A stretch of DNA of 64,000 nt, from positions 682,001 to 746,000 of the forward strand of contig NZ_CP014143.1 in assembly GCF_001750105.1 (NCBI RefSeq), in the 5' to 3' direction. This DNA is from Microbulbifer aggregans. Lineage in GTDB: Bacteria > Pseudomonadota > Gammaproteobacteria > Pseudomonadales > Cellvibrionaceae. The translations under genes and the position numbers were made by a program. Every line of letters starts with the position of its first letter. Position 1 is the first letter of the stretch. Under the pieces are notes generated by a model. The model worked only from the letters and a program-made list of their open reading frames with translations. It ran no database searches and was not told where the DNA came from. Shown here in pieces: positions 48,261 through 64,000 of this stretch.

Positions 48261-48416
48261 GGGTTCTCTATTTCCCCGGCGTTTCCGCACAAGAGGTCTT
48301 CGGCCTCAGGGCGGCGCGTTTTTCCTTTTTGTAACCATAGACGCTCGACCCGTTGTCGAGCGGAATTATCGGGCGCGAAGTGGGCTGGCGATCCCGACCA
48401 CCTTGCCCTACCAATT

Positions 48417-48468
48417 AGGGCGACCTGCAAGGGCAACCAGCTTGGGCGACCGGCCAGGGCGACACGCG
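48417..48468. repeat. 13-bp tandem repeat in the hut control region
   Basis: Four consecutive imperfect units begin at 48417, 48430, 48443 and 48456, each starting AGGGCGACC or a one-base variant, with consensus WGGGCRACCNGCN. The spacing is exactly 13 bases throughout. Confidence 0.7.
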
Positions 48469-48541
48469 ACCGCAATCGCGGATGACGTTCACGCCCCTGC
48501 CTTGACACCACCAGCCGGTGGCAACATAGTAGCCGCAATAT

Positions 48542-48553
48542 TTGTATATACAA
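48542..48553. promoter_or_regulatory. Putative HutC operator
   Basis: TTGTATATACAA is a perfect 12-bp palindrome containing TGTA-N2-TACA, the core reported for HutC of Pseudomonas. A degenerate second copy, CATATACAAC, follows at 48555-48564. It lies 37 bases before the hutC ATG, well placed for autorepression and for control of hutI. Confidence 0.75.
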
Positions 48554-48589
48554 GCATATACAACTCAGGGTGAGACTCTACAGAAGTCC

Positions 48590-49360
48590 ATGAATACTGC
48601 AAGAAAGCCATTAGCCGGCGGCGAGCCCTCTGCTCAAGGCGACAAAGCTTCAGGCCCGGGGAACGAACCCCGTTACGCGGCCATCAAGCGTCATATCCGC
48701 GATCGTATCGAGCACGGGGACTGGCCGGTGAATACCCGCGTCCCGTCGGAAAACCAGCTCGCCGAGGAGTTCCGGGTCAGCCGCATGACCGCAAGGCGGG
48801 CACTGAGCGAGCTGACTGACGAAGGCGTATTGGTGCGTTCCCAGGGCCTGGGGACTTTTGTCGCCGAGCCCACCCCGGCGGGCTCTCTGCTGGAGATCCG
48901 CAATATCGCCGACGAGGTCTCCGCCCGCGGCCACAGCTACAGCAGCCGTATCCTGTGCCTGGAGGAAACCACCACATCACCCACTGTCAGCCGCGCCCTT
49001 GGCCTGACCGAGGGCGCGCCGGTGTACCACTCCCGCATCGTGCACTGCGACAACAACCTGCCGATTCAATGGGAGGAGCGCTACACCAACCCGGCGCTGG
49101 CTCCCGCGTACCTGCAGCAGGACTTCTCTGTTTCGACCCCCAATGCCTACCTGTCTGCGGTGGCACCGCTGACTGAAGTAGACACCACTGTGGAGGCCAT
49201 CGCTGCAGATGAAGAGATCGCCCGCGCGCTGGAAATGACAGCCGGTGACGCCTGTCTGCAGATCTGGCGGCGCACCATGAGCAGCAGCGGCGTGGTCAGC
49301 TTTGCCCGCCTGGTGCATCCGGGTAACCGCTACCGGCTCGGGGCCCAGTTGAGATTCTGA
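48590..49360 (+). CDS. hutC: GntR-family repressor of histidine utilisation
   Basis: 256 residues from the ATG at 48590; an upstream in-frame TTG at 48542 lies inside the operator and is rejected. The N-terminal winged helix is PRYAAIKRHIRDRIEHGDWP...PSENQLAEEFRVSRMTARRALSELTDEGVLVRSQGLGTFV. The C-terminal UTRA domain senses the ligand, expected to be urocanate. HutC normally represses the hut genes until urocanate accumulates. The N-terminal 25 residues are an unusual Gly/Ala/Pro-rich extension. It is the first gene of hutCUH. Confidence 0.94.
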   Translation: MNTARKPLAGGEPSAQGDKASGPGNEPRYAAIKRHIRDRIEHGDWPVNTRVPSENQLAEEFRVSRMTARRALSELTDEGVLVRSQGLGTFVAEPTPAGSLLEIRNIADEVSARGHSYSSRILCLEETTTSPTVSRALGLTEGAPVYHSRIVHCDNNLPIQWEERYTNPALAPAYLQQDFSVSTPNAYLSAVAPLTEVDTTVEAIAADEEIARALEMTAGDACLQIWRRTMSSSGVVSFARLVHPGNRYRLGAQLRF

Positions 49361-49376
49361 TTTAAGAAATTGTTAC

Positions 49377-49392
49377 TCCGGCAGATGCCGGA
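49377..49392. repeat. Small palindrome between hutC and hutU
   Basis: TCCGGC/GCCGGA with an AGAT loop, similar to the core of the REP-like palindromes elsewhere in the window. There is no T tract. It may reduce or stabilise the transcript between hutC and hutU. Confidence 0.35.
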
Positions 49393-49437
49393 ACCACATG
49401 AACATGAATACGACCGAACGTTATTGCGAGGTGAACC

Positions 49438-51114
49438 ATGACAACCGATAAACGCCACGACCCCAGCCGCAAAATCGCTGCACCCACCGGCAGTAAGCTG
49501 AATGCCAAAAGCTGGCTCACTGAAGCGCCCTTGCGCATGCTGATGAACAACCTGCACCCCGACGTCGCAGAACGGCCTGAGGACCTGGTGGTTTACGGTG
49601 GTATCGGCCGTGCCGCTCGCGACTGGGAATGCTACGACAAGATCGTCGAAGTGCTGAAGCGTCTCGAAGACGACGAAACCCTGCTGGTACAGTCCGGCAA
49701 GCCGGTGGGCGTGTTCAAAACCCACGCCGATGCCCCGCGCGTGCTTATTGCCAACTCCAACCTGGTGCCACACTGGGCAACCTGGGAACACTTCAACGAG
49801 CTGGATAAAAAGGGCCTGGCCATGTACGGCCAGATGACTGCCGGCTCCTGGATCTATATCGGCTCCCAGGGCATCGTCCAGGGCACCTATGAAACCTTTG
49901 CCGCGGTAGCCCGCAAGCATTTCGCTGGCGAGGCAAAAGGAAAGTGGGTTCTCACCGGCGGACTCGGCGGCATGGGCGGCGCCCAGCCACTGGCGGCGAC
50001 CATGGCCGGCTTCTGCATGATCGCCGTGGAGTGTGACGAAACCCGCATCGACTTCCGCCTGCGCACCGGCTACGTGGACAAGAAAGCCACCAGCCTCGAC
50101 GAAGCGCTGGAGATCATCAACGCGGCGATGGAAAAAGGTGAAGCCATCTCCGTCGGCCTGCTCGGCAACGCCGCCGACGTTTTCCCGGAGATCGTCGAGC
50201 GCGGTATCCAGCCCGATGTGGTCACCGACCAGACGTCTGCCCATGATCCGCTGAATGGATACCTGCCCAAGGGCTGGACCATGGAGCAGGCCGCCGAGAT
50301 GCGCAAGCAGGACGAGGCCCTGGTAGTGAAGGAAGCCAAGAAATCCATGGCGATCCAGGTACAGGCCATGCTGGACCTGCAGGAGCGCGGTGCCGCCACT
50401 CTCGATTACGGCAACAACATCCGTCAGATGGCGCTCGAGGAAGGGGTAGAAAACGCCTTCGATTTCCCCGGATTTGTACCGGCCTATATTCGCCCGCTGT
50501 TCTGTGAAGGCATCGGCCCCTTCCGCTGGGCCGCGCTGTCCGGCAATCCGGAAGATATCTACAAGACCGACGCCAAGGTAAAGGAGCTGATTCCGGACAA
50601 TCCGCAGCTGCACAACTGGCTCGATATGGCGCGTGAGCGCATTCAGTTCCAGGGCCTGCCGGCGCGTATCTGCTGGGTCGGCCTGAAGGACCGCGCGCGC
50701 CTGGCGCTGGCCTTTAACGAAATGGTCGCCAATGGCGAGCTGGAAGCGCCGGTAGTGATCGGCCGCGATCATCTCGATTCCGGTTCCGTGGCGAGCCCCA
50801 ACCGCGAGACCGAGTCGATGATGGACGGTTCCGATGCGGTATCCGACTGGCCGCTGCTCAACGCGCTGCTGAATACCGCTTCCGGCGCTACCTGGGTATC
50901 CCTGCACCACGGCGGTGGCGTGGGTATGGGCTTCAGCCAGCACTCCGGCGTGGTCATCGTCTGCGACGGTACCGAAGCGGCGAAAAAACGCATCGAGCGC
51001 GTGCTGTGGAACGACCCGGCCACGGGCGTAATGCGTCATGCCGATGCGGGCTACGACATCGCCAAGAACTGCGCGCGTGAGCAGGATCTGGACCTGCCGA
51101 TGCTGAAAGACTGA
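49438..51114 (+). CDS. hutU: Urocanate hydratase
   Basis: 558 residues. GCGAGGTG lies before the ATG. The tightly bound NAD site is in the [25 protein letters not shown] segment ([16 protein letters not shown]), and the active-site Cys block is in [22 protein letters not shown]. The C-terminal [18 protein letters not shown] is family-typical. It converts urocanate to imidazolonepropionate. It lies between hutC and hutH on the plus strand. Confidence 0.97.
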
Positions 51115-51123
51115 CAGACAACA

Positions 51124-51153
51124 TTTCACGGCTACTGCGCGTGCGCCGTGAAA
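51124..51153 (+). promoter_or_regulatory. Hairpin in the hutU-hutH spacer
   Basis: A perfect 9-bp stem TTTCACGGC/GCCGTGAAA encloses a 12-base loop, ten bases after the hutU stop. No T tract follows. The hutH ribosome site is weak, so the hairpin could matter for hutH expression. Confidence 0.45.
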
Positions 51154-51197
51154 CGCTTTCTGACGAAATTTTCGATTACATTTTCGGTGAAAAATTT

Positions 51198-52748
51198 ATG
51201 TACAAACTGGAAATCAACCCCGGTCAGTTGAGCCTGGCAGAACTGCGTCGAGTGGCACGTGAGCCGGTTCAGCTCTCTCTGGCAAAAGATGCCTACCCGG
51301 CCATCGAGGCCTCGGCGAAAACCGTTGCCCAGGTGCTGAGCGAAGGCCGTACCGTCTACGGCATCAATACCGGTTTCGGCCTGCTAGCCAACACCCGTAT
51401 TGAAAAAGATGACCTGGAAAACCTGCAGCGCGCCATCGTACTTTCCCATGCGGCGGGCACCGGCAACTTTATGAGTGAGGCCACCGTGCGCCTGCTGATG
51501 GTGCTGAAGATCAATTCTCTCGCACGCGGTTTTTCCGGTGTGCGCCCGCTGGTGATCGAGGCGCTAATGCAACTGGTCAATGCCGGAGTGTTCCCGGCCA
51601 TTCCGGAAAAGGGTTCCGTCGGCGCATCCGGTGACCTGGCACCTCTGGCGCATATGAGCGTCGTGTTGCTGGGTGAAGGTGAAGTATTCATCGATGGCAA
51701 GCGCAAGCCCGCCCATGAGGGTCTGAAAAAAGCCGGCCTAGAACCCATCGTGCTCGCCCCCAAAGAGGGACTCGCACTGCTGAACGGTACCCAGGCATCC
51801 ACGGCATTCGCCCTGCTCGGACTGTTTGCCGCCGAGGACCTGTTTGCCGGCGGCATCGTCACCGGCGCACTGACCCTGGAGGCCGCCAAGGGCTCGCGTC
51901 GGCCCTTTGACGACCGCATTCACGCGGTACGTGGTCAGAAGGCCCAGCGCGAAGTGGCCGAGAGTTTCCGCGACCTGCTGGGTGACAGCAGCCAGATCGG
52001 CGAGTCGCACCAGTTCTGTGAGAAAGTGCAGGATCCCTACTCCCTGCGCTGCCAACCACAGGTAATGGGTGCCTGCCTGCAGCAAATCCGCTTCGCGGCC
52101 GAGGTATTGCTGGCAGAAGCGAACGGTGTTTCCGACAACCCGCTGGTCTTTACCGACGAGGAAAACCCGGAAAATTCCGACATTATTTCCGGTGGCAACT
52201 TCCACGCAGAGCCGGTCGCCATGGTGGCCGACAACCTGGCACTGGCGCTGGCAGAAATCGGTTCGCTGTCCGAGCGGCGCATGGCGCTGCTGATCGACAC
52301 CAACCTGTCCGGGCTGCCGCCCTTCCTGGTGGAAAATGGTGGCGTGAACTCCGGCTTTATGATCGCGCAGGTCACCTCCGCGGCACTGGCGAGCGAAAAC
52401 AAATCCCTGGCCCATCCAGCCAGCGTTGACTCGCTGCCCACCAGCGCCAACCAGGAAGACCATGTCTCCATGGCCACATTTGCCGGCCGTCGCCTGCGGG
52501 ACATGGCCGACAACACCTGCGGCATTCTCGCGGTGGAATTGCTGGCCGCCTGTCAGGGGATGGACTTCCGTGCGCCGCTGAAGAGTACGGACAAGCTTGA
52601 AGAGGCAAAGGGCAAGCTGCGCGAGCGTGTCTCCTTCTATGACAAGGACCGCTATTTTGCGCCGGACATCGAGGAGGCCAAGCAGCTGCTGGCCAGCGCG
52701 GTGTATCGCGATTTCCTGCCTGCAGAAATCCTTCCCAGCGCCAGCTGA
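51198..52748 (+). CDS. hutH: Histidine ammonia-lyase
   Basis: 516 residues from the ATG at 51198. The frame is open 19 codons further upstream, but those residues are not family-like and overlap the spacer hairpin region. The MIO prosthetic group forms from Ala143-Ser-Gly145 in [16 protein letters not shown]. Other hallmarks are [38 protein letters not shown] and [11 protein letters not shown]. It deaminates histidine to trans-urocanate, the inducer sensed by HutC, and starts the pathway. Last gene of hutCUH. Confidence 0.97.
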
Positions 52749-52973: not shown

Positions 52974-53288
52974 ATGAAACCGTTGCCCCGCACCCTGTGG
53001 GGGTTTGGGTCTGCACTGGCTCTTGCTGCTTCGCTGGCATCCTCTGGATGCGCAGAGTCCGGCTACTCCTCCAATTCCAGCAGTGGCTATTACCGAGTCG
53101 GTGGCCGCTACTATCACTGCCATCCGGGTGGTGTCTGTCACAACGCCCGTCATGCGAATTACTACTTCGTGGGCGGTGTCTATCGACCCCGTCCGGGCCA
53201 TTACCACCATCGGCCACCGCACTACCATCGACCACCCCATCACCACGTAAGGCCCCGGCCACTGCCGGCCCGACCGAGACCCCGTTGA
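52974..53288 (+). CDS. Small exported Tyr/His/Pro/Arg-rich protein
   Basis: 104 residues with GGAGG six bases before the ATG. An N-terminal signal (about 1-25) ends in LASSGC26; the -3 residue is Ser rather than Leu, so lipidation is doubtful. The mature part has YYRVGGRYYHCHPGGVCHNARHANYYFVGGVYRP, then a His/Pro/Arg-rich tail with HHRPPHYHRPPHHH-like runs. The two Cys and many His could bind metal. A related small Tyr/His/Arg-rich lipoprotein follows 93 bases downstream. No characterised family is recognised. Confidence 0.72.
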   Translation: MKPLPRTLWGFGSALALAASLASSGCAESGYSSNSSSGYYRVGGRYYHCHPGGVCHNARHANYYFVGGVYRPRPGHYHHRPPHYHRPPHHHVRPRPLPARPRPR

Positions 53289-53381: not shown

Positions 53382-53726
53382 ATGAACAGAACCCTGAAGA
53401 CCGGGCTGATCGCAGTAACGGTCTGTACCGCACTGACCCTGGGGGCCTGCGCCTCTGATGGGTACTACTCTGGAGGTTACTACTCCAGCTATCCCTATTA
53501 TTCGCGTCCCTATGTCTATCCATCCAGCGGGGCCTACCTCTACTATTCATCGCCGCGCTACTATCGGTATTACAATCATCCCCGCTATCGACACTATTAC
53601 CGGCATGATCATCGCTATCGCGGACATCGGCACTACCGCGGTCATCACCGCTACCATGGCCGTCCGGGTTACCGCCCAGGTCGACCGGCACATCGTCCAA
53701 GTGGAGCCCATCGTCCTCGGCGCTAA
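53382..53726 (+). CDS. Small Tyr/His/Arg-rich lipoprotein
   Basis: 114 residues with CCGGAG before the ATG. The lipobox is Leu20-Gly-Ala-Cys23. The mature 92 residues are about one quarter Tyr, with very many Arg, His, Ser and Gly and almost no acidic residues, which makes the protein strongly basic. It resembles in style the preceding gene and may be a diverged tandem relative, though their tails share composition rather than clear alignment. Such low-complexity lipoproteins may coat the cell wall or bind polyanions; this is inference. Confidence 0.72.
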   Translation: MNRTLKTGLIAVTVCTALTLGACASDGYYSGGYYSSYPYYSRPYVYPSSGAYLYYSSPRYYRYYNHPRYRHYYRHDHRYRGHRHYRGHHRYHGRPGYRPGRPAHRPSGAHRPRR

Positions 53727-53791: not shown

Positions 53792-53807
53792 TCATACCTT
53801 GGTCATA
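53792..53807. promoter_or_regulatory. 16-bp motif upstream of the 3-hydroxybutyrate dehydrogenase gene
   Basis: TCATACCTTGGTCATA lies about 100 bases before the SDR start. The same 16 bases occur at 59293-59308 upstream of the TetR-led operon. The centre ACC-TT-GGT is a dyad. It is a candidate binding site for the CrbR-like regulator encoded at 54747 (inference). Confidence 0.5.
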
Positions 53808-53853
53808 CAGACCACCCTCCGTACCGCTGCTAGGATTTTTCAAAAATGAGCAC

Positions 53854-53882
53854 GGAAGCTCCGCGCATAGCGCGGGGCTTCC
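53854..53882. repeat. Hairpin upstream of the SDR gene
   Basis: GGAAGCTCCGCGC and GCGCGGGGCTTCC pair over 13 positions with one G-T mismatch and an ATA loop, ending 22 bases before the proposed start. It could act in the 5' leader of the SDR message, or terminate read-through from the lipoproteins despite lacking a T tract. Confidence 0.45.
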
Positions 53883-53904
53883 ACACTAGCCGCGGGGGGT
53901 GCAA

Positions 53905-54693
53905 GTGCAGCGGAATTCAGATCAACCCATTCTGGTAACCGGATCCACTAGTGGTATCGGTCTCGCCATCGCCAGGCGTATGGCCGAGGCCGGACATCCG
54001 GTCATGCTTCACGGCCTCGCTACTGCAAGCGAGGGCGCAGCGCTCGTGGAGGAATTCCAGCAGCGCTACCAAGTGTCATGTGGCTTCAGCAGCGCCGACA
54101 TCAGTACTGATGAGGGTTGCTCCCAGCTCGTCGCCGACAGCAGAGAGGCGCTGGGGCATCCTGCCGTTCTGGTTAACAATGCGGGGGTCCAGTTCACCGC
54201 CCCGGCCCACGAGTTCCCCAGCGATCAGTGGCAGCGCATCCTGTCCATCAACCTGAGCTCCGCCTTTTTCCTGAGCAGGGAGTTACTGCCGAACATGCGC
54301 GAGAGCGGCTGGGGCAGGATCATCAACATCTCCTCCGTACATGGTCTCGTCGCCTCGGAAAACAAGGCTGCCTACTGTGCAGCGAAACATGGGCTTATCG
54401 GACTGACAAAAGTGATGGCTCTGGAGAATGCGGATTGCGGAATAACCGTGAATGCCATCTGCCCGGGCTGGGTGGAGACACCACTGATACAGCCGCAGAT
54501 CGAACGCATCGCACAGGAAGAATCCATTGACATGGAGCAGGCCCGGAAGCGTCTTGTTGGTGCCAAGCAACCACTGGCCCAGACCACCAAGCCGGACGCC
54601 ATCGGATCACTGGTGCACTACCTATGTGCTGAACACGCAGCGACGATCACCGGCGCTTCGCTGCCTGTGGACGGGGGCTGGACCGCGCAGTAG
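53905..54693 (+). CDS. Short-chain dehydrogenase, 3-hydroxybutyrate dehydrogenase-like
   Basis: 262 residues from the GTG at 53905 (GGGGGG five bases upstream); a GTG two codons earlier is also possible. SDR motifs are TGSTSGIG (cofactor), VNNAGVQ, the catalytic Ser in INISSVHG, and Tyr-Cys-Ala-Ala-Lys. The segment VNAICPGWVETPLIQPQIERIA and the acidic/His cofactor-end residues are typical of NAD-dependent D-3-hydroxybutyrate dehydrogenase (BdhA). It would oxidise 3-hydroxybutyrate to acetoacetate. It lies just upstream of the response regulator gene. Confidence 0.85.
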   Translation: MQRNSDQPILVTGSTSGIGLAIARRMAEAGHPVMLHGLATASEGAALVEEFQQRYQVSCGFSSADISTDEGCSQLVADSREALGHPAVLVNNAGVQFTAPAHEFPSDQWQRILSINLSSAFFLSRELLPNMRESGWGRIINISSVHGLVASENKAAYCAAKHGLIGLTKVMALENADCGITVNAICPGWVETPLIQPQIERIAQEESIDMEQARKRLVGAKQPLAQTTKPDAIGSLVHYLCAEHAATITGASLPVDGGWTAQ

Positions 54694-54700
54694 CATGAAC

Positions 54701-54723
54701 GGATGCCGGTATCGCCGGCATCC
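54701..54723. repeat. REP-like palindrome between SDR and response regulator genes
   Basis: GGATGCCGG/CCGGCATCC, a perfect 9-bp stem with a five-base loop. It shares the GGATGCCGG sequence with the palindromes at 26.5 kb. Confidence 0.55.
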
Positions 54724-54746
54724 ATTCATCACCCTAGAAGCGCGAC

Positions 54747-55367
54747 GTGAACTACAAACTGCTGATTGCCGACGATCATCCCCTCTACCGCGAAGCATTG
54801 GCCACCACGGTGAGCGCCAAGCTGCCGGACTGCGACCTGCTGCAGAGTGAAGACCTCGCCTCCACCCTTTCCCGACTCGATGAGCATGAAATCGACCTGC
54901 TGCTTCTGGATCTGAATATGCCCGGTAGTGAAGGCTTTAATGGCCTGGCTCAGATCCGCAACAGCTTTCCCGCAGTACCGGTAGTCGTGGTCTCCGGCAG
55001 CGATAAAAACAGCGTGATCCGTCAGGCAGCCGGCTTCGGCGCCAGCGGCTTTCTCTCTAAGACGGCCCGCCCCGAGGAAATCACCGACTGCATTCAGCGT
55101 GTGCTCGATGGAGAAGAGTATTTCAGTGCAGAAGCGCTGGAAGAGGAGGCGGAGAGCGAACTGGCTGAACGACTGGCACGGCTGACACCACAGCAGTTAC
55201 GCATTTTCCAGATGATCGCTCAGGGCCTGCTGAACAAGCAGATCGCTTTTGAGCTGGATATCACCGAGCCCACGGTCAAGAGTCATGTCACCGCGATCCT
55301 GCGCAAGCTGGAACTCCGCGACCGTAAGCAGCTGATCCGCGAGGCCCAGGCGCTGACGCAGCTCTGA
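54747..55367 (+). CDS. NarL/LuxR-family response regulator, CrbR/ErdR-like
   Basis: 206 residues from a GTG. The receiver domain has acidic pocket Asp9-Asp10, phosphoacceptor Asp55 (LLLLDLNMPG) and Lys in FLSKTA. The C-terminal LuxR helix-turn-helix (about 140-205) is LTPQQLRIFQMIAQGLLNKQIAFELDITEPTVKSHVTAILRKLELRDRKQ. Regulators of this length and kind pair with the SSS-PAS-kinase hybrids (CrbS/MxtR) to control acetate and short-chain acid use in Pseudomonas and Vibrio. A kinase of just that architecture lies at 61.7 kb. The pairing is inference from family and proximity. Confidence 0.85.
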   Translation: MNYKLLIADDHPLYREALATTVSAKLPDCDLLQSEDLASTLSRLDEHEIDLLLLDLNMPGSEGFNGLAQIRNSFPAVPVVVVSGSDKNSVIRQAAGFGASGFLSKTARPEEITDCIQRVLDGEEYFSAEALEEEAESELAERLARLTPQQLRIFQMIAQGLLNKQIAFELDITEPTVKSHVTAILRKLELRDRKQLIREAQALTQL

Positions 55368-55449
55368 GCCTGCGGCAAGCCAGGCGGAAACTCGCAGCCG
55401 CAATGCCGTTACGGCAGGCAAGCCCCCCTGTCATGCCCCTAACCGGGGT

Positions 55450-55830
55450 TCAGCACTGAAATAGCACCAGCGCATCGCCTTCACAGATCAGTCGTCCACC
55501 CGCACCGGTGCAGCGGGTTTCCAGGTTGACCAGCGCCTTGTCATCGCGCAGGCGGGTCACGGTGACCGTCGCCGTGAGAGGCTCGTCTACCTGTGCGGGA
55601 GCATGGAATTGCATGTGCTGCTTCAGGTAGTTGGTGCCGTGTCCGGGTAATTCCTCACCCAGCAGGTAGGAAAACAGCCCGGCGATCAGGGGTTCGGGTA
55701 CTTCCGGCCATTCAGCTGCGATATGCGCCAGCTGGCACCAGTCCCGCAGGGCCTGCCGGTCAAAACTGCGGGTCACGGACGCACTGTCGTCGATGCGCAG
55801 GGCATCGAAACGGGACAGGTTCTTGTTCAT
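55450..55830 (-). CDS. Hotdog-fold MaoC-like protein (acyl-CoA hydratase/thioesterase-like)
   Basis: 126 residues from the ATG at 55830, which overlaps the stop of the next hotdog gene by four bases (ATGA). The fold is suggested by AEWPEVPEPLIAGLFSYLLGEELPGHGTNYLKQHMQFHAPAQVDEPLTATVTVTRLRDDKALVNLETRC. The catalytic Asp/His motif of R-hydratases is not evident, so this may be a partner subunit to the upstream MaoC protein rather than an independent enzyme. It is the last gene of the leftward acyl-CoA operon. Confidence 0.78.
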   Translation of the reverse strand: MNKNLSRFDALRIDDSASVTRSFDRQALRDWCQLAHIAAEWPEVPEPLIAGLFSYLLGEELPGHGTNYLKQHMQFHAPAQVDEPLTATVTVTRLRDDKALVNLETRCTGAGGRLICEGDALVLFQC

Positions 55831-56246
55831 CGCGGCAACTCCTCGGCAAGTGCTACGCAACAGCGGCCGTCCAGGCACAACCGCTCCTGCTGGGTAATCT
55901 GTGTCACCAGTTCCACACGACCCGGCTGCTCCGCCTCGACCAGGAGGGTGACCCTGATTGGCTGATCGGTAAAAGTGGGGGCCGGGAACTTGAGGTTCTG
56001 GGTTTGCAGCCTTGCACCCGGGTAATGCGCCTCGATCATGCCGCGCAGCACGGTAAACAACAGCATGCCGTGGGAGACAGTGGCCCCGAAGCGGGTGCTT
56101 GCAGCGTATTCCGGATCCACATGAATGGGGTTGTGGTCTCCGCTCAGGCGGGCAAAGCGGTTGAAGTCTTCCTGGGTCAGGACAAACTCCTCCTGCATTT
56201 TTTGCAGGGCCTGCCTCGGCTGCGCCTCAGTTTCTGGCTGCGTCAT
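55827..56246 (-). CDS. MaoC-family enoyl-CoA hydratase
   Basis: 139 residues. The R-hydratase signature is FARLSGDHNPIHVDPEYAASTRFGATVSHGML, with catalytic Asp and His. It hydrates enoyl-CoA to (R)-3-hydroxyacyl-CoA. Its stop overlaps the start of the second hotdog gene by four bases, and its start overlaps the end of the acyl-CoA synthetase gene by 20 bases, so the three genes are translationally linked. Confidence 0.88.
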   Translation of the reverse strand: MTQPETEAQPRQALQKMQEEFVLTQEDFNRFARLSGDHNPIHVDPEYAASTRFGATVSHGMLLFTVLRGMIEAHYPGARLQTQNLKFPAPTFTDQPIRVTLLVEAEQPGRVELVTQITQQERLCLDGRCCVALAEELPR

Positions 56247-57753
56247 CGCGTAACTCCTGCTTGATCACTTTGCCCAATGCATTGCGTGGCAACGCCGCCA
56301 GCACCTGGAATGCTTTGGGCACCTTGTAGCCTGCCAGGCGTGCCCGGCAGAACGCCCGCAGTTCATCTTCCTCCGGCGCGGGAAAATCAGATTTCAAGCC
56401 GAAGTAGGCCTTGCCAACTTCACCCCAACGCTCGTCGGGCATACCCACGACCGCGACCTCGGCAATGGCCGGATGCTGCTCCAGCACCTGCTCCACTTCC
56501 GCCGGATATACGTTCTCTCCGCCAGAGATATACATGTCCTTCCAGCGGTCGACGATGTAGTAGCAGCCATCCTCGTCACAGCGGGCCACGTCACCACTGT
56601 GCAGCCAGCCATCTTCCCGGATCGCTTCGGCAGTAGCATCCGGCCTGTTCCAGTAACCGGGGGTGACATTCGGGCCGCGGATCAGCAACTCGCCCGGCTC
56701 GCCATCGGCAACATCGTTTCCATTGCGGTCGACGATACGCACCTCGGTGAGCAACTGCGGGCGACCCACGGAGCCAATCTTGTCGAGCACCAGCGCCTCA
56801 TCGAGCAGAAATACCGTGGGGCCGGTTTCTGTCATGCCCATACCGGTGCGAATGCGAATGCCCGCATCGGCATACCGTTTTGCAACGGGCAGCGATAACG
56901 GCGCACCGCCACAGCCCCAGGAGCGCACGCGCTTGAGCCTCTCGCCATCGAACTCAGGATGATCCAGTAGCGCCTGGTACACGGCCGGCACACCGAAAAA
57001 GATGGTTGCACGGCCCTGCAGTACCTGCAGGGCCTGATTCGGATCGAAGCTGCGCGATACCAGCACGCAGCCACCCACCAGCAACACCGCTGACGAATAC
57101 AGGTTGATACCCGCGGTGTGGAACAGGGGAAGCACGTTCAACAGCACATCATCACTGGTCAGGTTGACTGCGAGGCCGATGTTGAGGTGATTCGCCAGCA
57201 TCATGCGAAACGTCTGAATCACCCCTTTCGGGCGTCCGGTGGTGCCAGAGGTGTAAAGCAGGTACCAGGGTGTGTCCGGGCTTTTTTCTGCGTGCGGCCT
57301 GAAGTCAGGCGTGCTGGCGGCAAGGTCCAAGTGGTAATCGCGCTGCCCCGCAGCGGCACCATCGAGGGCCACCAGGGTCATCGTAACCCAGCGGTTGCCC
57401 AGACTGGCCGCCACCTCAGCGAATTCGCCACCGAAGATCAACGCACGGGGATCACAGTCATCCAGCAACACTTCCAACTCCGGCTCCGCCAACCGCCAGT
57501 TGAGTGGCACCAGGATCAGGCCGGCCTTGGCACAGCCGAACAGCATGGCGAAAAATTCCGCGCGGCTGTGGCCGAGGTAAGCGAGGCGGTCGCCCTCCTG
57601 CAGGCCCCAATGCTCGCGCGCGGCCGCCGCCAGGCGCGACGCGTGTTCGTTCAGTTGGCGGTAGTCGTAGCATTCACCGCTGTCGAGGTCCTCGAGTGCC
57701 GGTCGATCCGGCGTCACCCGCGCGCGCTGCGCGAGCAGGTCGAACATTTCCAT
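56227..57753 (-). CDS. Acyl-CoA synthetase (AMP-forming)
   Basis: 508 residues from the ATG at 57753, with GGAG upstream. ANL-superfamily motifs: phosphate loop YTSGTTGRPKGV, A5 GMTETGPTVF, A7 GWLHSGDVARCDEDGCYYIVDR, A8 KDMYISGGENVYPAEVEQVL, and the A10 Lys in RNALGKVIKQEL. It activates a carboxylic acid to its CoA thioester through an acyl-AMP. The chain length is not predictable. It lies in the operon TetR, enoyl-CoA hydratase, synthetase, MaoC, hotdog. Confidence 0.93.
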   Translation of the reverse strand: MEMFDLLAQRARVTPDRPALEDLDSGECYDYRQLNEHASRLAAAAREHWGLQEGDRLAYLGHSRAEFFAMLFGCAKAGLILVPLNWRLAEPELEVLLDDCDPRALIFGGEFAEVAASLGNRWVTMTLVALDGAAAGQRDYHLDLAASTPDFRPHAEKSPDTPWYLLYTSGTTGRPKGVIQTFRMMLANHLNIGLAVNLTSDDVLLNVLPLFHTAGINLYSSAVLLVGGCVLVSRSFDPNQALQVLQGRATIFFGVPAVYQALLDHPEFDGERLKRVRSWGCGGAPLSLPVAKRYADAGIRIRTGMGMTETGPTVFLLDEALVLDKIGSVGRPQLLTEVRIVDRNGNDVADGEPGELLIRGPNVTPGYWNRPDATAEAIREDGWLHSGDVARCDEDGCYYIVDRWKDMYISGGENVYPAEVEQVLEQHPAIAEVAVVGMPDERWGEVGKAYFGLKSDFPAPEEDELRAFCRARLAGYKVPKAFQVLAALPRNALGKVIKQELRDDAARN

Positions 57754-57819
57754 GGGTGTCTCCGTTATTGTTATCTGCCTGTGGATCGCGACCACCGCGA
57801 TCTCCATGAATCATTGCCG

Positions 57820-58584
57820 TTAAGCGCGACCGAGAAAGTCGGCCATGCCTTGGTCCGCTTCCTCGCTGTCGATCAATTCCAGAAAGTGTCGCCGTTCGGC
57901 CTCCAGCGCCTCGGCCACCCGATTCACATCGGGACGCGTCAGGGCCAGGGTGTTGCGGACGCTGCCGCGCTTTGCGTCGCGCAGCCGGCGTGCCAGCTCC
58001 ATGGCTCTGCCCGACACATCGCCGTCGTCCTCCAGATACTGGACCAGCCCTAGCTGCAGGGCTTCCCTGGCCTCGATACGGCGATTGGTGAGCTGCACAT
58101 CCAGCGCCCGACCGCGACCGATGCGCTCCGGCATCAGCGCCGTCCAGCCGCCATCCGGACTGAAACCGACAGCGGTGTACCAGGGGGCGAAATGCGCGTT
58201 GGGGCCGGCCACGGCAATATCACAGGCCAGTACCAGCCCGGCCGATCCGCCGGTGACCATGCCGTGCACGGCAGCCACCGTCGGCAGTGGCAGCCGCAGC
58301 AGGTCGAGCATCGCCTCGTTCAGCTCGCCCACAAGCCGCGTGGCGTAGGCGCGCCGCTCTCCCCGGGCCACCTCGTAAAAAGCCGCCACATCACCACCGC
58401 TGGAAAAGGAGCGACCTTCAGCGCGGAGCACCAGCGCCTCCGGATTGTCATGTCGGCAACGAGTCAATGCCTCGCGCAGTTCATCCAGCAGCGGCTGAAC
58501 CAGGGCATTGTGACGCTCAGGGCGATTGAGGATGATGGTGGCGATTCCATCTTCCAGCTGATAGAGCACGTTTGCGGTGTTCAC
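57820..58584 (-). CDS. Enoyl-CoA hydratase/isomerase (crotonase fold)
   Basis: 254 residues. The oxyanion hole motifs are EGRSFSSGGDVAAFY and HGMVTGGSAGLVLACDIAVA. Instead of the usual Glu pair of enoyl-CoA hydratase, the second catalytic segment reads WYTAVGFSPDGGWTALMPERIG, where Asp may serve as base as in isomerases and some ligase-type relatives. Exact reaction uncertain. The ATG overlaps the tetR stop by four bases. Confidence 0.88.
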   Translation of the reverse strand: MNTANVLYQLEDGIATIILNRPERHNALVQPLLDELREALTRCRHDNPEALVLRAEGRSFSSGGDVAAFYEVARGERRAYATRLVGELNEAMLDLLRLPLPTVAAVHGMVTGGSAGLVLACDIAVAGPNAHFAPWYTAVGFSPDGGWTALMPERIGRGRALDVQLTNRRIEAREALQLGLVQYLEDDGDVSGRAMELARRLRDAKRGSVRNTLALTRPDVNRVAEALEAERRHFLELIDSEEADQGMADFLGRA

Positions 58585-59225
58585 CGCTTTTCCCTAGCGC
58601 CGGCGGAGGCCAGGCCATTGCGCAGCAGGTCGGAAACCGTCGCCACGATCTCATCAAAGTGCATTTCCTTTTCCCAAAGCGCATAGCGCAGGCCGAGGAA
58701 GTTCGAGATGCCCATCAGGGCCCAGACCCGTACCTCATCGTTACCCGGGCGGATTTCCCCCCGGTCCGAGGCCCCGGCCAGCATCCGGATATAGCGCTCA
58801 CCAAAGGACTCGTAATAACTGCGGTAGATAGACTCATCGACGAACTGCGCCTCCTGCAACACGCGATACAGCGCGGGGTTGTCGCGTAGATACTGGAGGA
58901 AAGCACGCAAACCCATCTCCTCAGACTCCAGGCGATCCTGTGCATCAGCAGTTTCCCGCTCCAGATGTGCGCGCAGGCGCCGCCCCATCTCCTGCACGAG
59001 TTCGCGCAAGGTCTGCTCCTTGCTGACGAAGTAGGTGTAGAAGGTGCCGGAAGCCACACCAGCCGCCCGGGTGATGTCTGCAATACCCGCGCGGTGATAA
59101 CCGAGTGAGCCAAACGTCTCCTCCGCCGCCTTGAGAATACGGGCGCGGGTTCGCTCACCACGGGCGGTCTTGGGCACGCCGGGGCCGCTACCAGCGACTG
59201 CGGGAATGGAGACGGCATCCGTCAT
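58581..59225 (-). CDS. TetR-family regulator of the acyl-CoA operon
   Basis: 214 residues. The N-terminal helix-turn-helix is TRARILKAAEETFGSLGYHRAGIADITRAAGVASGTFYTYFVSKEQTLRELV. The remainder is helical and should bind a ligand, plausibly an acyl-CoA given the operon it leads. Its stop overlaps the enoyl-CoA hydratase start, so it is the first gene of a five-gene leftward operon. The 16-bp motif lies 68 bases upstream of its ATG. Confidence 0.92.
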   Translation of the reverse strand: MTDAVSIPAVAGSGPGVPKTARGERTRARILKAAEETFGSLGYHRAGIADITRAAGVASGTFYTYFVSKEQTLRELVQEMGRRLRAHLERETADAQDRLESEEMGLRAFLQYLRDNPALYRVLQEAQFVDESIYRSYYESFGERYIRMLAGASDRGEIRPGNDEVRVWALMGISNFLGLRYALWEKEMHFDEIVATVSDLLRNGLASAGAREKR

Positions 59226-59292
59226 GGTGCTTTGCTCTCTTTATGAAACCTGAATCGGTATTCATGTTACGGAAAGTTTCGGTCGCTGAAAC

Positions 59293-59308
59293 TCATACCT
59301 TGGTCATA
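59293..59308. promoter_or_regulatory. 16-bp motif upstream of the TetR/acyl-CoA operon
   Basis: TCATACCTTGGTCATA, identical over all 16 bases to 53792-53807. On the operon's own strand it reads TATGACCAAGGTATGA and lies 68 bases before the tetR ATG. Identical copies before two units of one locus suggest a common regulator. Confidence 0.55.
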
Positions 59309-59452: not shown

Positions 59453-60400
59453 CTACTCCGTGAGGCCGTGCACGAACTCCGCGGTATGGCGATAGAAGCG
59501 TTCACAGTCCGCCGCCACCATGGATTCCAGATTCAGGAACGCATGGATCTGCTGGTCGAAATGCAGCAATTCCGAGCTAACCCCAGCGTCTTTCAGCTTC
59601 TCCACATAGGCGAAGCCCTCATCACGCAGGGGGCAGAATTCCGCGGTCACCATCAGGGTCTTGGGCAGGTTCGCAGTGAACTCGTCGTGCAGTGGGGAGC
59701 AGGCACGACGGTTTTCCACACCCTGAAAGTAGTTATTGAAGTACCAGCCGATTTTCTCTTTTTCCAACAGGTAACCGCGGCCATTTTCCTCGATGGACGG
59801 CAGCTGCATGGTGTAATCCAGGCTCGGGTAGACCAACACCTGTGCGACGATGTTATGGCGCTCGTGTTGCAGCAGCGCGCTGGCACTCGCACACAGAGCG
59901 CCGCCGCCGGAGTCCCCCATCAGAATCCAGCGGTCGTTGTGCTCGATACCCTTGCGCTCAAGAGCAGGGCCAATGCCGCGGACCACCGCCAGCAGGTCTT
60001 CAAGCCCCGCCGGATAGGGATTTTCCGGCGCAAGCCGATAATCCACAGAGATGACCGTGCGCTTACTGTGGTGCGCGATACGGCGGCAGATCGGATCGTA
60101 GACGCTCACGCTACCGGCCATATGGCCGCCGCCGTGGGCGTAGATGATCGCCGGGCCACCATCATTCTGCTCTGGCCGGTAAATCCGTACCGGCACGGCA
60201 AAGCGAGGGCCGGGAATAACGGTATCCATTGCCGGCATTTCCGGACCCGCCTCGACAAAGCCCCGAGTCAAATTGGCGAGGCTTTCGCGGGCATTGGTCG
60301 GGGTCGGTTCGAATCCGGCGGCCTTCAGTTTTGCCACTACTTCATTGATTGTTTCCAGCCACTGGGCCAGAGCCGGATCAAGCTGTCGCGCTTTCTGCAT
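59453..60400 (-). CDS. Alpha/beta hydrolase, hormone-sensitive-lipase-like esterase
   Basis: 315 residues. The oxyanion motif is YAHGGGHMAGS, the nucleophile is Ser in LMGDSGGGALCAS, and the acid and base follow in FCPLRDEGFAYVEKL and HFDQQIHAFLNLES. This is the HSL (bacterial family IV) pattern. It would cleave short or medium acyl esters, releasing acids that the adjacent synthetase could activate. Its start overlaps the end of the MFS gene by 23 bases. Confidence 0.92.
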   Translation of the reverse strand: MQKARQLDPALAQWLETINEVVAKLKAAGFEPTPTNARESLANLTRGFVEAGPEMPAMDTVIPGPRFAVPVRIYRPEQNDGGPAIIYAHGGGHMAGSVSVYDPICRRIAHHSKRTVISVDYRLAPENPYPAGLEDLLAVVRGIGPALERKGIEHNDRWILMGDSGGGALCASASALLQHERHNIVAQVLVYPSLDYTMQLPSIEENGRGYLLEKEKIGWYFNNYFQGVENRRACSPLHDEFTANLPKTLMVTAEFCPLRDEGFAYVEKLKDAGVSSELLHFDQQIHAFLNLESMVAADCERFYRHTAEFVHGLTE

Positions 60401-61595
60401 TGTCCGCTTCCTTTTTTACATCGTTCTCAGGCTTTTTGCCGCTCTCCGGCAGCATGAAGGAAAACACAAACAGGGAGGCAGAACAGGCCACGGCTATGTA
60501 GGCTGCAATCGCCGGCTCGCCCGTCGTGTCCGCCATCAGGCCGGCCCCATACATCAACACTGTCTCGACCCCGTAGGAAATGGACCAGAACATGGCAAAG
60601 GTCACAGTGATGCGGCCGGGGGTCATGCCCGGCAGCTCCTGCGGCAGCGTCACCAGCGCAGTCATGGGCAGGAACATGAAGAAGCCAGCGAGGGCCGCCG
60701 CGGTGTAGGCGATAACCGGGTTGCGGCTCAGCACCATCAGTGCGGCGAAGATCACCAGCGCGAGGCCCGCATAACGCAGCACCGGCAAGCGCAGCGGATA
60801 GCGGCGGGTGATCATGATCCCCGCCACGGTGCCCACCATGCCGGCGGCGATCATCACCGCCGACAGGTGGTTACTGGCCACCGCAAAACCATCGATCAGC
60901 GGGAACAGGGCAAACACGGCGATATAGCAGAACAGCACACCGCAGTAGGCGAGCGGCAGCCACCAGTTAAAACCTTCACGAATACCATCGCGCAGGCCAT
61001 ATTTCTCTTCCGGCTGGCCGTTGTTGGCCGCGCCGGACAGAGAGAAGTCCTCCGCCGAGAGCCACCAGAGCACCGCCAGGGCCACCACCATCACGCCATA
61101 GAGCGCCACCACGGACTGCCAGCTGCCCATCCAGGCGGCCAGCGCTCCGGTGGAGAGAAGCGCGATCAGGTTACCGGTATTGAAGGCTGCGGCATTGACG
61201 CCGTTGATCAGCGGACGCTCTTCCGCGGCAAAGTAATGCAGCACCACCGGATTGAAGTAGACGATAGCCAGCGCTCCACCAAGCCCCAGGGCAAGGCGCG
61301 ACCACAACCAGCCGATGTAATCGCCAGCCAGGGCACCGAAGCCGCCCGCTGCAATCAGCAGCACTGCGACGGTAAAGGCACGCTTGACTCCCAGGCGTAC
61401 CAGCAACATGGCGGCAGCGAGGTTGCCGACGATCTTGGCGATGGTGATGACGTTACTACCCCAGGTGGCATTGGCCAGTCCGGCCTCGCCGAATGAGGCC
61501 TGCACGCTGGGGGTCAGGATGGCACCGGAAACCCACGACGCTGCGAACAACGCGTAGGCAGTGAACATCAGGATTTCGAGAACGTATTTCTTCAT
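60378..61595 (-). CDS. Major facilitator superfamily transporter
   Basis: 405 residues with about twelve hydrophobic helices and a soluble Lys/Glu-rich C-terminal tail. The loop 2-3 signature appears as LVRLGVKRAF and the middle loop between helices 6 and 7 is charged (AEDFSLSGAANNGQPEEKYGLRDG). It is in the same operon as the esterase. The family subgroup is not recognised; the setting suggests uptake of an ester or organic acid. A short ACCTTGGTC match lies about 90 bases upstream, inside the end of the kinase gene. Confidence 0.88.
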   Translation of the reverse strand: MKKYVLEILMFTAYALFAASWVSGAILTPSVQASFGEAGLANATWGSNVITIAKIVGNLAAAMLLVRLGVKRAFTVAVLLIAAGGFGALAGDYIGWLWSRLALGLGGALAIVYFNPVVLHYFAAEERPLINGVNAAAFNTGNLIALLSTGALAAWMGSWQSVVALYGVMVVALAVLWWLSAEDFSLSGAANNGQPEEKYGLRDGIREGFNWWLPLAYCGVLFCYIAVFALFPLIDGFAVASNHLSAVMIAAGMVGTVAGIMITRRYPLRLPVLRYAGLALVIFAALMVLSRNPVIAYTAAALAGFFMFLPMTALVTLPQELPGMTPGRITVTFAMFWSISYGVETVLMYGAGLMADTTGEPAIAAYIAVACSASLFVFSFMLPESGKKPENDVKKEADNAESATA

Positions 61596-61678: not shown

Positions 61679-64000
61679 CTATACGACCTTGGTCGCAGGG
61701 TCCGAGGCCCTGGACTTCTGGCGGGCCTGCAGTAGCGCTCGCAAGGCACCGGGGCGCAGGGGCTTCTGCAGGAACTGCCAGCCCGCGCGCTGGGCCCGAT
61801 TTTTCACCAGATCGGTATTTTCGGCGGAAATGATCACGCACGGTACGGTGGCACCCCATCTGGCCATCAACTCCCGCGCCAGGGCAATACCGTCGACCTC
61901 ACCGCCCAGATGGAAGTCCATGAGCAGCAGATCCGGCTGCGCCAGCTCAAGCGCCCGCTCGCGATTCGGGGCACTCGTTACCTGGCAGCCCCAGCCCCCG
62001 AGCAGCGCCTCCATGGCCTCGAGGATCGCCGGCTCATTATCGACACAGGCCACCTGCAGATTCAGGGAAGACTTTACCGCTTTCAATGGCGTCGGTGCGG
62101 CCACCCGGCGCAGCAACGGACGCGAGCGCGGTAGGCGCACGCGGAAGACACTGCCGCGACTCGGTCGCGAGGTGAGACTGATTGGGGAATCCAGCAAGCG
62201 GCAGAGACGCTCAACGGTGGCAAGCCCCAGCCCATAGCCGTGCTCCCGCTGTACTTCGCGCTCCGGGCTATCGAGTCGACAGAACTCGCGGAAGATATTC
62301 CGCTGCTGCGACTCGTCGATGCCACAGCCGGTATCCCAGACTTCCAGTGACACCCGGTCACCCCGCCCGCGGGCGACCAGCAGCACGCCGCCACTGCGCG
62401 TGTATTTGACGGCGTTATCGAGCAGGTTCTGCACCACACGACGCAGCATTTTTTCGTCGCTGTGCACCCACAGATCCGTCGGCCGGTAGCGCAGTTCGAA
62501 TCCCCGCGCCTCGGCGGCCAGACGGGCCTGGGCCACGGCATTGTCGAGTACCGGCTCCAGCGCCATGGCTTGCAGCTGTGGATGAATATCGCCCGCATCC
62601 ATCCGCGCGATCTGCAGCATGTCCGTGATCAGCTGTTCCGCTGCTGCCAGGGCAGTGTCGGCCCTGCTGAGCAGTCTGCGGCTGTCGCTGTCGAGCTCAC
62701 GGGCGCTGAGTGCATCCAGGAACAGGCGGCTGGCGTTCAGAGGCTGCACCAGGTCATGACTAGCGGCAGCAAGGAAGCGGGTCTTACCGGCACTGGCTGC
62801 ATGCAGCTCGCTGTTCAGTGTCTGCAGCTCGGTGGTCCGGGCAGCCACTTTCTGCTCCAGGGAATCCCGCACATCGGTCAGCTCGGCCAGTGCCCGCTGG
62901 TAATCCGAGACGTCGGTGTAAGTGGTTACAAACCCGCCGCCGGGCAGCGGGTTACCGCGGATTTCCAGCACCGTGCCATCGGTGCGGTGACGCTGGACCC
63001 GGTAGGCGGTGCCAGCGCGCAGGTGGTCGACCCGTTTCTGCACATGCATCTCGACGGCTCCGGGACCACATTCACCGCGGCTCGCGTTGTAGCGCACCAG
63101 CTCCGCCACCGGCTGGCCCACGTAGATCATCGAGCTGGGATAATTGAACAATTCCACGTAGCGCCGGTTCCAGGCCACCAGGTTCAGGTTGGCATCCACT
63201 ACGGAAATACCCTGGTCGATATTGTCGATACTGCTCTGCAGTAGTCCGCGACCAAACTGGTAGATGGCGCTGGCCTGCTCCAGGGTCTGCGGACTGACCT
63301 CGGCACTGTTGTGATATCGCACCAGCCGGCGGGCACTGGTGGAGCCGACAATACCCGCGAGAATTTTTTCCACCGCATCCCGGTAATCCTCGGCCGAGAC
63401 GGTTCTGGAACTGCCACCCTCGCTGGCAATACTGGCAAAAGTCCGCTCCGCCGCATCGCGTCCTACAAAGCGCGCCAACAGTTCGCGCAGGCGGATCTTG
63501 TTCACCGGTGTCTCATCGCGCTTGCTGCCCTGGGGCTGCCAGCGGTGCAGGAGCAGCGAGACAGAGACCAACAGCAGGATATTCAGGCCCAGGCCGAAGA
63601 GCGTCGTGATCGACAACGCACTCCACTGCAGCCCAAGCGCCTCTGCGACCAGGTCAGGGCTGCCCAGCGCAGCCGGTAGCGCCGACAGCGCCCACACCAG
63701 GGAACCCGCAGCGAGTCCGGCGATCACACCGGACGCCCGCAGGCGCGGCCAGTGTTTTGGCCAGCAGGCGGCAGCAATCATGGCCGGTGCAAGCTGGCCC
63801 ACCAGGGCCAGCGACAGCAAACCGAAGGTGCCGAGACGCACCCCCGCGCCTATAGCCTCGTTGACCGAAAACGCCGCCAGCATAATCAGGGCGATGATGA
63901 CCCGGCGCACGCGGCGCAGGTCCGTACCCAGCACCTGCCCCGCAGGCCTGGCCTGCAGGCGATGCAACCACCAGGGCACCACCATGGTGTTGGCGATCAT
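61679..64000 (-). CDS. Hybrid sensor histidine kinase with sodium-symporter-like N-terminus, CrbS/MxtR-like (partial at the right edge)
   Basis: 773 C-terminal residues are visible; the start lies beyond the window. The first 150 residues are the last helices of a sodium:solute symporter-type domain. A PAS domain follows (about 255-370; DNIDQGISVVDANLNLVAWNRRYVELF). The phosphoacceptor His is near residue 415 in AAASHDLVQPLNASRLF, with ATPase motifs N (RRVVQNLLDNAVKYT), G1 (DTGCGI) and G2 (GYGLGLATV). A receiver domain ends the protein with Asp near 694 (LLMDFHLGG). This is the architecture of CrbS/MxtR, which controls acetate metabolism with a LuxR-type partner; such a partner lies at 54.7 kb. 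Confidence 0.93.
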   Translation of the reverse strand: MIANTMVVPWWLHRLQARPAGQVLGTDLRRVRRVIIALIMLAAFSVNEAIGAGVRLGTFGLLSLALVGQLAPAMIAAACWPKHWPRLRASGVIAGLAAGSLVWALSALPAALGSPDLVAEALGLQWSALSITTLFGLGLNILLLVSVSLLLHRWQPQGSKRDETPVNKIRLRELLARFVGRDAAERTFASIASEGGSSRTVSAEDYRDAVEKILAGIVGSTSARRLVRYHNSAEVSPQTLEQASAIYQFGRGLLQSSIDNIDQGISVVDANLNLVAWNRRYVELFNYPSSMIYVGQPVAELVRYNASRGECGPGAVEMHVQKRVDHLRAGTAYRVQRHRTDGTVLEIRGNPLPGGGFVTTYTDVSDYQRALAELTDVRDSLEQKVAARTTELQTLNSELHAASAGKTRFLAAASHDLVQPLNASRLFLDALSARELDSDSRRLLSRADTALAAAEQLITDMLQIARMDAGDIHPQLQAMALEPVLDNAVAQARLAAEARGFELRYRPTDLWVHSDEKMLRRVVQNLLDNAVKYTRSGGVLLVARGRGDRVSLEVWDTGCGIDESQQRNIFREFCRLDSPEREVQREHGYGLGLATVERLCRLLDSPISLTSRPSRGSVFRVRLPRSRPLLRRVAAPTPLKAVKSSLNLQVACVDNEPAILEAMEALLGGWGCQVTSAPNRERALELAQPDLLLMDFHLGGEVDGIALARELMARWGATVPCVIISAENTDLVKNRAQRAGWQFLQKPLRPGALRALLQARQKSRASDPATKVV

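Follow-up and report, generated by a model that had tools for sequence, protein, structure and literature searches.

The window analysed in this work, a stretch of 64,000 nucleotides (nt) from Microbulbifer aggregans (contig NZ_CP014143.1, positions 682,001 to 746,000), contains two copies of the 16-bp sequence TCATACCTTGGTCATA, at 53792-53807 and 59293-59308, both on the plus strand and both intergenic. A scan of the 64-kb window confirmed the sequence-only reading of this DNA, which had described the copies as exact and as the only ones present: two matches were found even when up to three mismatches were allowed. Copy 1 (53792..53807, plus strand) lies 91 nt ahead of the GTG of a frame encoding 3-hydroxybutyrate dehydrogenase (bdh, 53899..54693, plus strand; NF009093 283.1 bits, over the cut-off of 258, and TIGR01963 300.7 bits, slightly under the cut-off of 307.05). 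After a gap of 53 nt, with which co-transcription is probable, bdh is followed by the gene of a LuxR/NarL-type response regulator (54747..55367, plus strand; Response_reg and GerE domains), a CrbR/ErdR paralog (RR_TF_ErdR 193.9 bits, cut-off 390) and the proposed binder of the motif. Copy 2 (59293..59308), an exact match that reads TATGACCAAGGTATGA in the minus-strand direction of the operon it precedes, lies 67 nt ahead of the ATG (59225) of a tetR gene heading an acyl-CoA operon. A CrbS-like hybrid histidine kinase is encoded further on, on the minus strand (61679..64000); its gene runs off the window to window-equivalent position 65044 and is complete in locus L010 (1121 aa). The kinase carries the PAS_7, HisKA, HATPase_c and Response_reg domains of Pfam, and its residues 2-519 match the CbrA SLC5-STAC structure (PDB 10ED, E 2e-51), so that the SLC5, PAS, HisKA, HATPase and receiver parts of a CrbS/CrbR-type hybrid kinase are all found. 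The two motif-bearing units had been said to surround both regulator and kinase: the regulator gene does lie between the copies, but the kinase gene (61679-65044) is beyond the second one.

Extension of the scan to the whole genome (one contig of 3.86 Mb; genome coordinates are written C1:) revealed variants of the motif at two further promoters. A third copy, TCATACCTTGGTCTAA, with two mismatches, was found 1.3 kb past the window (C1:747284, window-equivalent 65284-65299) on the far side of the kinase gene, where it precedes a gene for a TonB receptor that is transcribed divergently from the kinase gene. The fourth copy, TCATGCCTTGGTCTGA, with three mismatches, is located at C1:2394289-2394304 on the minus strand, before a gene for acetoacetyl-CoA synthetase (TIGR01217 971.3 bits, cut-off 520.9); the open reading frame starts directly after the site, and as residue 28 is the first to be covered by the family match, translation probably starts further downstream. 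Relative to bdh and the TonB gene, the motif is reversed at tetR and the acetoacetyl-CoA synthetase gene, so that both orientations are represented. Of the other, weaker matches, three lie inside reading frames (2998198, 1179110 and 2652412), one overlaps the start of a gene reading like L28 ribosomal protein (925160), and one, with three mismatches, falls between genes ahead of an alpha/beta-hydrolase-like frame (3457456). A search pattern derived from the true sites gave four exact matches in the genome, and its 11 matches at two mismatches were treated as noise because a reversed-pattern control gave 17. The expectation that the motif should also mark other short-chain-acid genes was borne out at the acetoacetyl-CoA synthetase gene; its extension to acs failed, as described below.

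The putative bdh core promoter (53808..53836, plus strand) consists of a -35-like CAGACC (53808-53813) and a -10 TAGGAT (53831-53836) with a spacer of 17 nt, and a -10-like TAACAT of the tetR promoter (59264..59269, minus strand) was recognised 23 nt past copy 2. Across the genus, a TANNNT sequence starts 23 nt (17 genomes) or 24 nt (19 genomes) past the motif in 36/36 bdh promoters, and 23 nt past it in 29/29 distinct TonB promoter sequences and in all seven tetR promoters. Among 31 sites before acetoacetyl-CoA synthetase genes, AATAAT was found at 22 nt in 24, GATAAT at 22 nt in one and TANNNT at 23 nt in six. The distance from the 8-base core of the motif to the -10 is 27 nt in all four promoters of this genome, three of which have the core AC-N4-GT and the fourth ACCAAGGC. 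This spacing indicates that the site abuts the -35, the position of a class II activator, and the ACTU-type inverted repeat immediately upstream of the -35 that characterises CrbS/CrbR systems is present here; the ACTU of CrbR itself is described at -52 to -36 of the Pseudomonas fluorescens acs start and as required for activation (PMC5715377). The 20 bases ahead of the exact word vary among the 36 bdh promoters. In four loci (L033:9070, L034:9071, L038:9071 and L276:11934) a second, outward-facing copy with two to three mismatches lies directly upstream of the bdh copy.

Comparison of 48 genomes of the genus, with regulator presence set at 66% identity or more, revealed the regulator in 36 and its absence from 12, one of the latter (G007) being only 80% complete. 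Both bdh (E<=1e-50) and an ortholog of the kinase (at least 65% identity) occur in the same 36 genomes. The exact 16-mer was found in 36/36 regulator-bearing genomes, in each of them before bdh, vs 1/12 regulator-free genomes, and the form of the TonB promoter, TCATACCTTGGTCTAR, in 36/36 vs 0/12. The sole regulator-free exception, G023, kept the promoter close to its gene for histidine ammonia-lyase, and all that remained of bdh was a stretch reading like its first codons. In ten loci where the kinase and TonB genes lie away from bdh, the TonB copy of the motif stays by the TonB gene. The recognition-helix region of the regulator, ITEPTVKSHVTAILRK, was identical in the 33 loci read; the 21 loci from named records, with regulators 74-97% identical, are all labelled Microbulbifer. 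In three genomes, one-mismatch copies (TCATACCTTGGTCTGG twice and TCATACCTTGGTCTAT once) lie between divergent citrate synthase and succinate dehydrogenase genes, and the regulon may reach the tricarboxylic acid cycle in some species. These copies are at G046:C1:1278094 (L278:3095), G045:C5:274015 (L279:3016) and G015:C1:4257000 (L280:3001), the genes of L279 being named by likeness to those of L278.

As bdh, the regulator, the kinase and the TonB gene are mostly neighbours, a fair test of the association was provided by the promoter of acetoacetyl-CoA synthetase, whose gene was found in 48/48 genomes. An upstream site with up to two mismatches to TCATACCTTGGTCATA or TCATACCTTGGTCTAR was present in 31/36 regulator-bearing vs 0/12 regulator-free genomes (Fisher 9e-8, a value that ignores kinship and is a guide only), and none of 960 shuffled upstream sequences of this gene reached that threshold. 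In a tree of 47 acetoacetyl-CoA synthetases (G044 was left out for a split frame, leaving 11 regulator-free rows), the regulator-free state needs four changes, three of them forced by well-supported branches, which indicates that the association of motif and regulator does not stem from one event.

A related cluster was found in another genus of the family. Genome G055 contains bdh, regulator, kinase and TonB genes at 41-57% identity (regulator 47%, kinase 41%); its TonB site is exactly TCATACCTTGGTCTAG, and its bdh promoter has the ACTU-like core ACTAAGGT 27 nt before TACAGT, the same distance as above. These words bridge the motif and the ACTU and support one family of sites. Outside Microbulbifer the exact motif was found, among the matches listed, only in that genus (g9; G055, G156 and G157), and one-mismatch matches in other genera of the family look like noise. 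In L319, L320 and L050, with regulators at 41-46% identity, neither a bdh match nor a motif match below three mismatches was found.

Taken together, the sites, their conservation, their spacing and their co-occurrence with the regulator lead us to infer its binding, its activating role and its inducer, and we consider it highly probable that the response regulator whose gene lies between the copies has the 16-mer as its operator, in a predicted CrbS/R-type ketone-body regulon with four promoters. The proposal of a shared operator for the local CrbR/CrbS-like pair, made when the repeat was first read, is in this way upheld as the best-surviving explanation, at the level of a predicted site. The product of bdh oxidises 3-hydroxybutyrate to acetoacetate, and acetoacetyl-CoA synthetase converts the latter to acetoacetyl-CoA, the two forming a ketone-body route. 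The SLC5-type hybrid kinase would sense a substrate, for which 3-hydroxybutyrate or acetoacetate is the most likely candidate, and a dimer of the phosphorylated regulator would bind ACC-WW-GGT, a near-palindrome immediately ahead of the -35, activating the promoters of the bdh-regulator unit, the TetR-led acyl-CoA operon, the TonB receptor gene and the acetoacetyl-CoA synthetase gene. Since the regulator gene is within the bdh unit, we propose that the regulator also activates itself.

Several observations weigh against this interpretation. The joint absence of bdh, kinase, TonB gene and regulator is not independent, given that they are mostly neighbours, and only acetoacetyl-CoA synthetase tests the association at an unlinked gene. 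At that gene, no site within two mismatches was found in the regulator-bearing genomes G006, G013, G024, G039 and G043; a three-mismatch site precedes it in the regulator-free G023 and G034; and in the genome studied here the core of the site is ACCAAGGC, not ACCAAGGT. The half-site GGCATGATTG is still found before it in 8/12 regulator-free genomes, and its retention without the regulator suggests that this portion of the site may have another role; the persisting half may reflect either decay or a second use. The bdh promoters were gathered by the exact word, so the invariance of its columns restates the count of 36/36. No Pfam family matched residues 1-520 of the kinase, and it is the gene content that suggests sensing of 3-hydroxybutyrate.

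Next to acs2 the genome encodes another CrbR homolog, closer to CrbR than the local regulator is (253.8 bits vs 193.9, both below the ErdR cut-off), and the motif might be bound by this protein, the genes being members of the known acetate regulon. The pair formed by acs2 and the CrbR-like gene occupies C1:1984692-1986560 and C1:1983858-1984475 (L114, L017). The core of the motif is similar to the ACTU and holds the same position, regulators of one family could cross-bind, and 27/36 motif-bearing genomes have a second regulator at 40% identity or more; this count uses regulators because the kinase threshold misses kinases, including the closer homolog of this genome. However, the remaining nine motif-bearing genomes are without such a second regulator, and in these nine a single acs was found at the threshold. 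In G023 and G034 a CrbR-like gene (45%) is present without the regulon. The acs promoters also argue against this possibility. The acs gene beside CrbR carries a different word (GACTAATGTC and GACTTATGTC), its promoter containing two ACTU-like words, CGACTAATGTCTAA and CGACTTATGTCTAA, 51 nt apart; the core class AC-N4-GT is common to both predicted operators, but the word is not, and the helix region of the CrbR homolog is VTEATVKAHLTALFRK vs ITEPTVKSHVTAILRK in the local regulator. At acs1, surveyed in 47 genomes (G026 was left out, with no acs1 match at the threshold), no conserved copy of the motif was found, the best being a site with three mismatches in one regulator-free genome. The acs1 of the genome studied here has an isolated GACCAAGGT core, no counterpart of which was found upstream of acs1 in the 46 remaining genomes. 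The motif site in an acs promoter that a CrbS/CrbR regulon would include was not found here. In view of the acs promoters and of the genomes without a second regulator, control by the acetate system was rejected and is considered very improbable.

A further alternative is that an unlinked transcription factor binds the motif, the regulator being only one of its targets or a passenger. Binding by the regulator is predicted from DNA and protein sequences, and the half-site kept in regulator-free genomes would suit such a factor. On the other hand, the intact site and the regulator are absent together, their distribution on the tree calling for three changes or more, and the site is similar to the one required by this family of regulators. 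We regard this possibility as very unlikely.

TetR, whose gene is adjacent to copy 2, was also considered as the binder, repressing its own operon and bdh. Genes of the tetR type are often autoregulated, copy 2 lies only 67 nt before this one, and an exact copy of the motif precedes tetR in 7/7 tetR-bearing genomes, including G046, where the operon is about 76 kb from bdh and has an exact copy of its own. In G016 a single copy is common to divergent tetR and bdh genes. Nevertheless, a tetR ortholog was found in just 7/48 genomes (73-100% identity; other hits, among the matches listed, were 22-38% identical), and therefore 29 of the 36 regulator-bearing genomes hold the motif without it; the motif is not confined to genomes encoding TetR. 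Moreover, all seven tetR promoters have another inverted repeat, TGAAT-N4-ATTCA, 28 nt past the motif and overlapping the end of the -10 (59251..59264, minus strand, in this genome). Within the 413,083 bases of the 21 named loci this repeat occurs four times, each time at the tetR promoter position and never at bdh, and it is a better candidate than the 16-mer for the putative operator of TetR, which would probably add repression of its own operon from that site. TetR was rejected as the binder of the 16-mer, and we give this possibility hardly any credence. Finally, a chance repeat was rejected by the genus-wide conservation and by dinucleotide shuffles of the window, of which 2 in 100 reached two matches at up to three mismatches (mean 0.22).

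The remaining genes of the region were annotated as follows. The TetR-led operon, on the minus strand, comprises the TetR-family regulator (58581..59225; PF00440), an enoyl-CoA hydratase (57820..58584; PF00378, 147.6 bits), an AMP-forming acyl-CoA ligase (56227..57807; PF00501, 287.1 bits), a MaoC-like dehydratase (55827..56246; PF01575, 86.1 bits) and a last gene (55450..55878) without a Pfam family, whose product has distant MaoC-type similarity (PRK08190, 61.5 bits, far below the cut-off). The kinase unit, on the same strand, includes an MFS transporter (60378..61595; PF07690, 80.7 bits) and an esterase-like alpha/beta-hydrolase (59453..60400; PF07859, 181.7 bits). The gap between bdh and the regulator gene (54694-54746 here) folds into a stem in 21/21 loci compared (L029-L049), often as GCACCC with GGGTGC and elsewhere as CACACCC with GGGTGTG or GGATGCCGG with CCGGCATCC, and an RNA hairpin ahead of the regulator gene may thus be conserved. 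Histidine-utilisation genes lie to the left (46091-52748), encoding an arginase-family protein, a HutI-like amidohydrolase, a HutC-like GntR/UTRA regulator, urocanase and histidine ammonia-lyase (over the TIGR01225 cut-off); a gene for the latter is present within 10 kb to the left of the regulator in 11/21 named loci. Two small His/Tyr/Arg-rich proteins with signal-like or lipobox-like starts, as judged by eye, are encoded at 52974-53288 and 53382-53726, and no Pfam family was found in either.

The data support a regulon of a paralogous CrbS/R type with its own ACTU-variant operator. A substrate or cargo consisting of oligomers or esters of 3-hydroxybutyrate would fit the TonB receptor, the esterase-like protein and the MFS transporter. 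A broader proposal, which we put forward tentatively and do not hold to be the likelier outcome, is that a branch of the SLC5 kinases has turned into a dedicated ketone-body system, in which a transporter domain would sense 3-hydroxybutyrate or acetoacetate and a diverged ACTU operator of its own would command outer-membrane uptake through the TonB receptor, oxidation by bdh and CoA activation by acetoacetyl-CoA synthetase, perhaps to live on marine 3-hydroxybutyrate oligomers derived from polyhydroxybutyrate.

Among other two-component systems, CbrB of Pseudomonas is a regulator of another type and AtoC of Escherichia coli is a sigma-54 activator; AtoS/AtoC is not known to include an SLC5 kinase. 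The CbrA/CbrB system resembles the one described here in its SLC5-STAC kinase, the source of the 10ED structure matched by kinase residues 2-519, and differs in being described for histidine utilisation (PMC13022988, PMC8871633). The likeness of AtoS/AtoC lies in its acetoacetate-induced two-component control (PMC3118216). RpuS/R of Sinorhizobium fredii, likened here by description and not by sequence, is also an SLC5/STAC kinase system for a short carboxylate, but it is reported to control the pyruvate symporter MctP (PMC9100948). No SLC5-kinase system tied to the use of 3-hydroxybutyrate or acetoacetate was found in open-access titles and the beginnings of abstracts, most subscription-journal papers being outside that scope, and no paper was found when the open-access search included Microbulbifer. 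Two papers contain both terms (PMC7699770, PMC8871633), yet in the parts covered they do not link such a kinase to these substrates, and none of the names CrbR, ErdR and MxtR was found in the main text of a study of how P. putida uses (R)-1,3-butanediol (PMC13390443).

The system shares several features with the CrbS/CrbR (MxtR/ErdR) acetate system described in Pseudomonas and Vibrio, namely an SLC5-type hybrid kinase with a LuxR-type regulator, the placing of an imperfect inverted repeat immediately before the -35 and a target set that includes the gene of a CoA ligase (PMC5715377, PMC8402216). In contrast to CrbS/CrbR, the regulator scores well below the curated ErdR cut-off, the operator word is ACCTTGGT vs ACTAATGT at the acs2 of the same genome, and the predicted targets are bdh, acetoacetyl-CoA synthetase, the TonB receptor and the acyl-CoA operon, not acs1. 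A paralogous CrbS/R-type system hereby gains a predicted regulon, an operator word, a promoter spacing and a testable inducer, and the presence of a CrbR homolog and its paralog, with two operator words, in one genome offers a natural pair for studying how sister response regulators separate their DNA sites.

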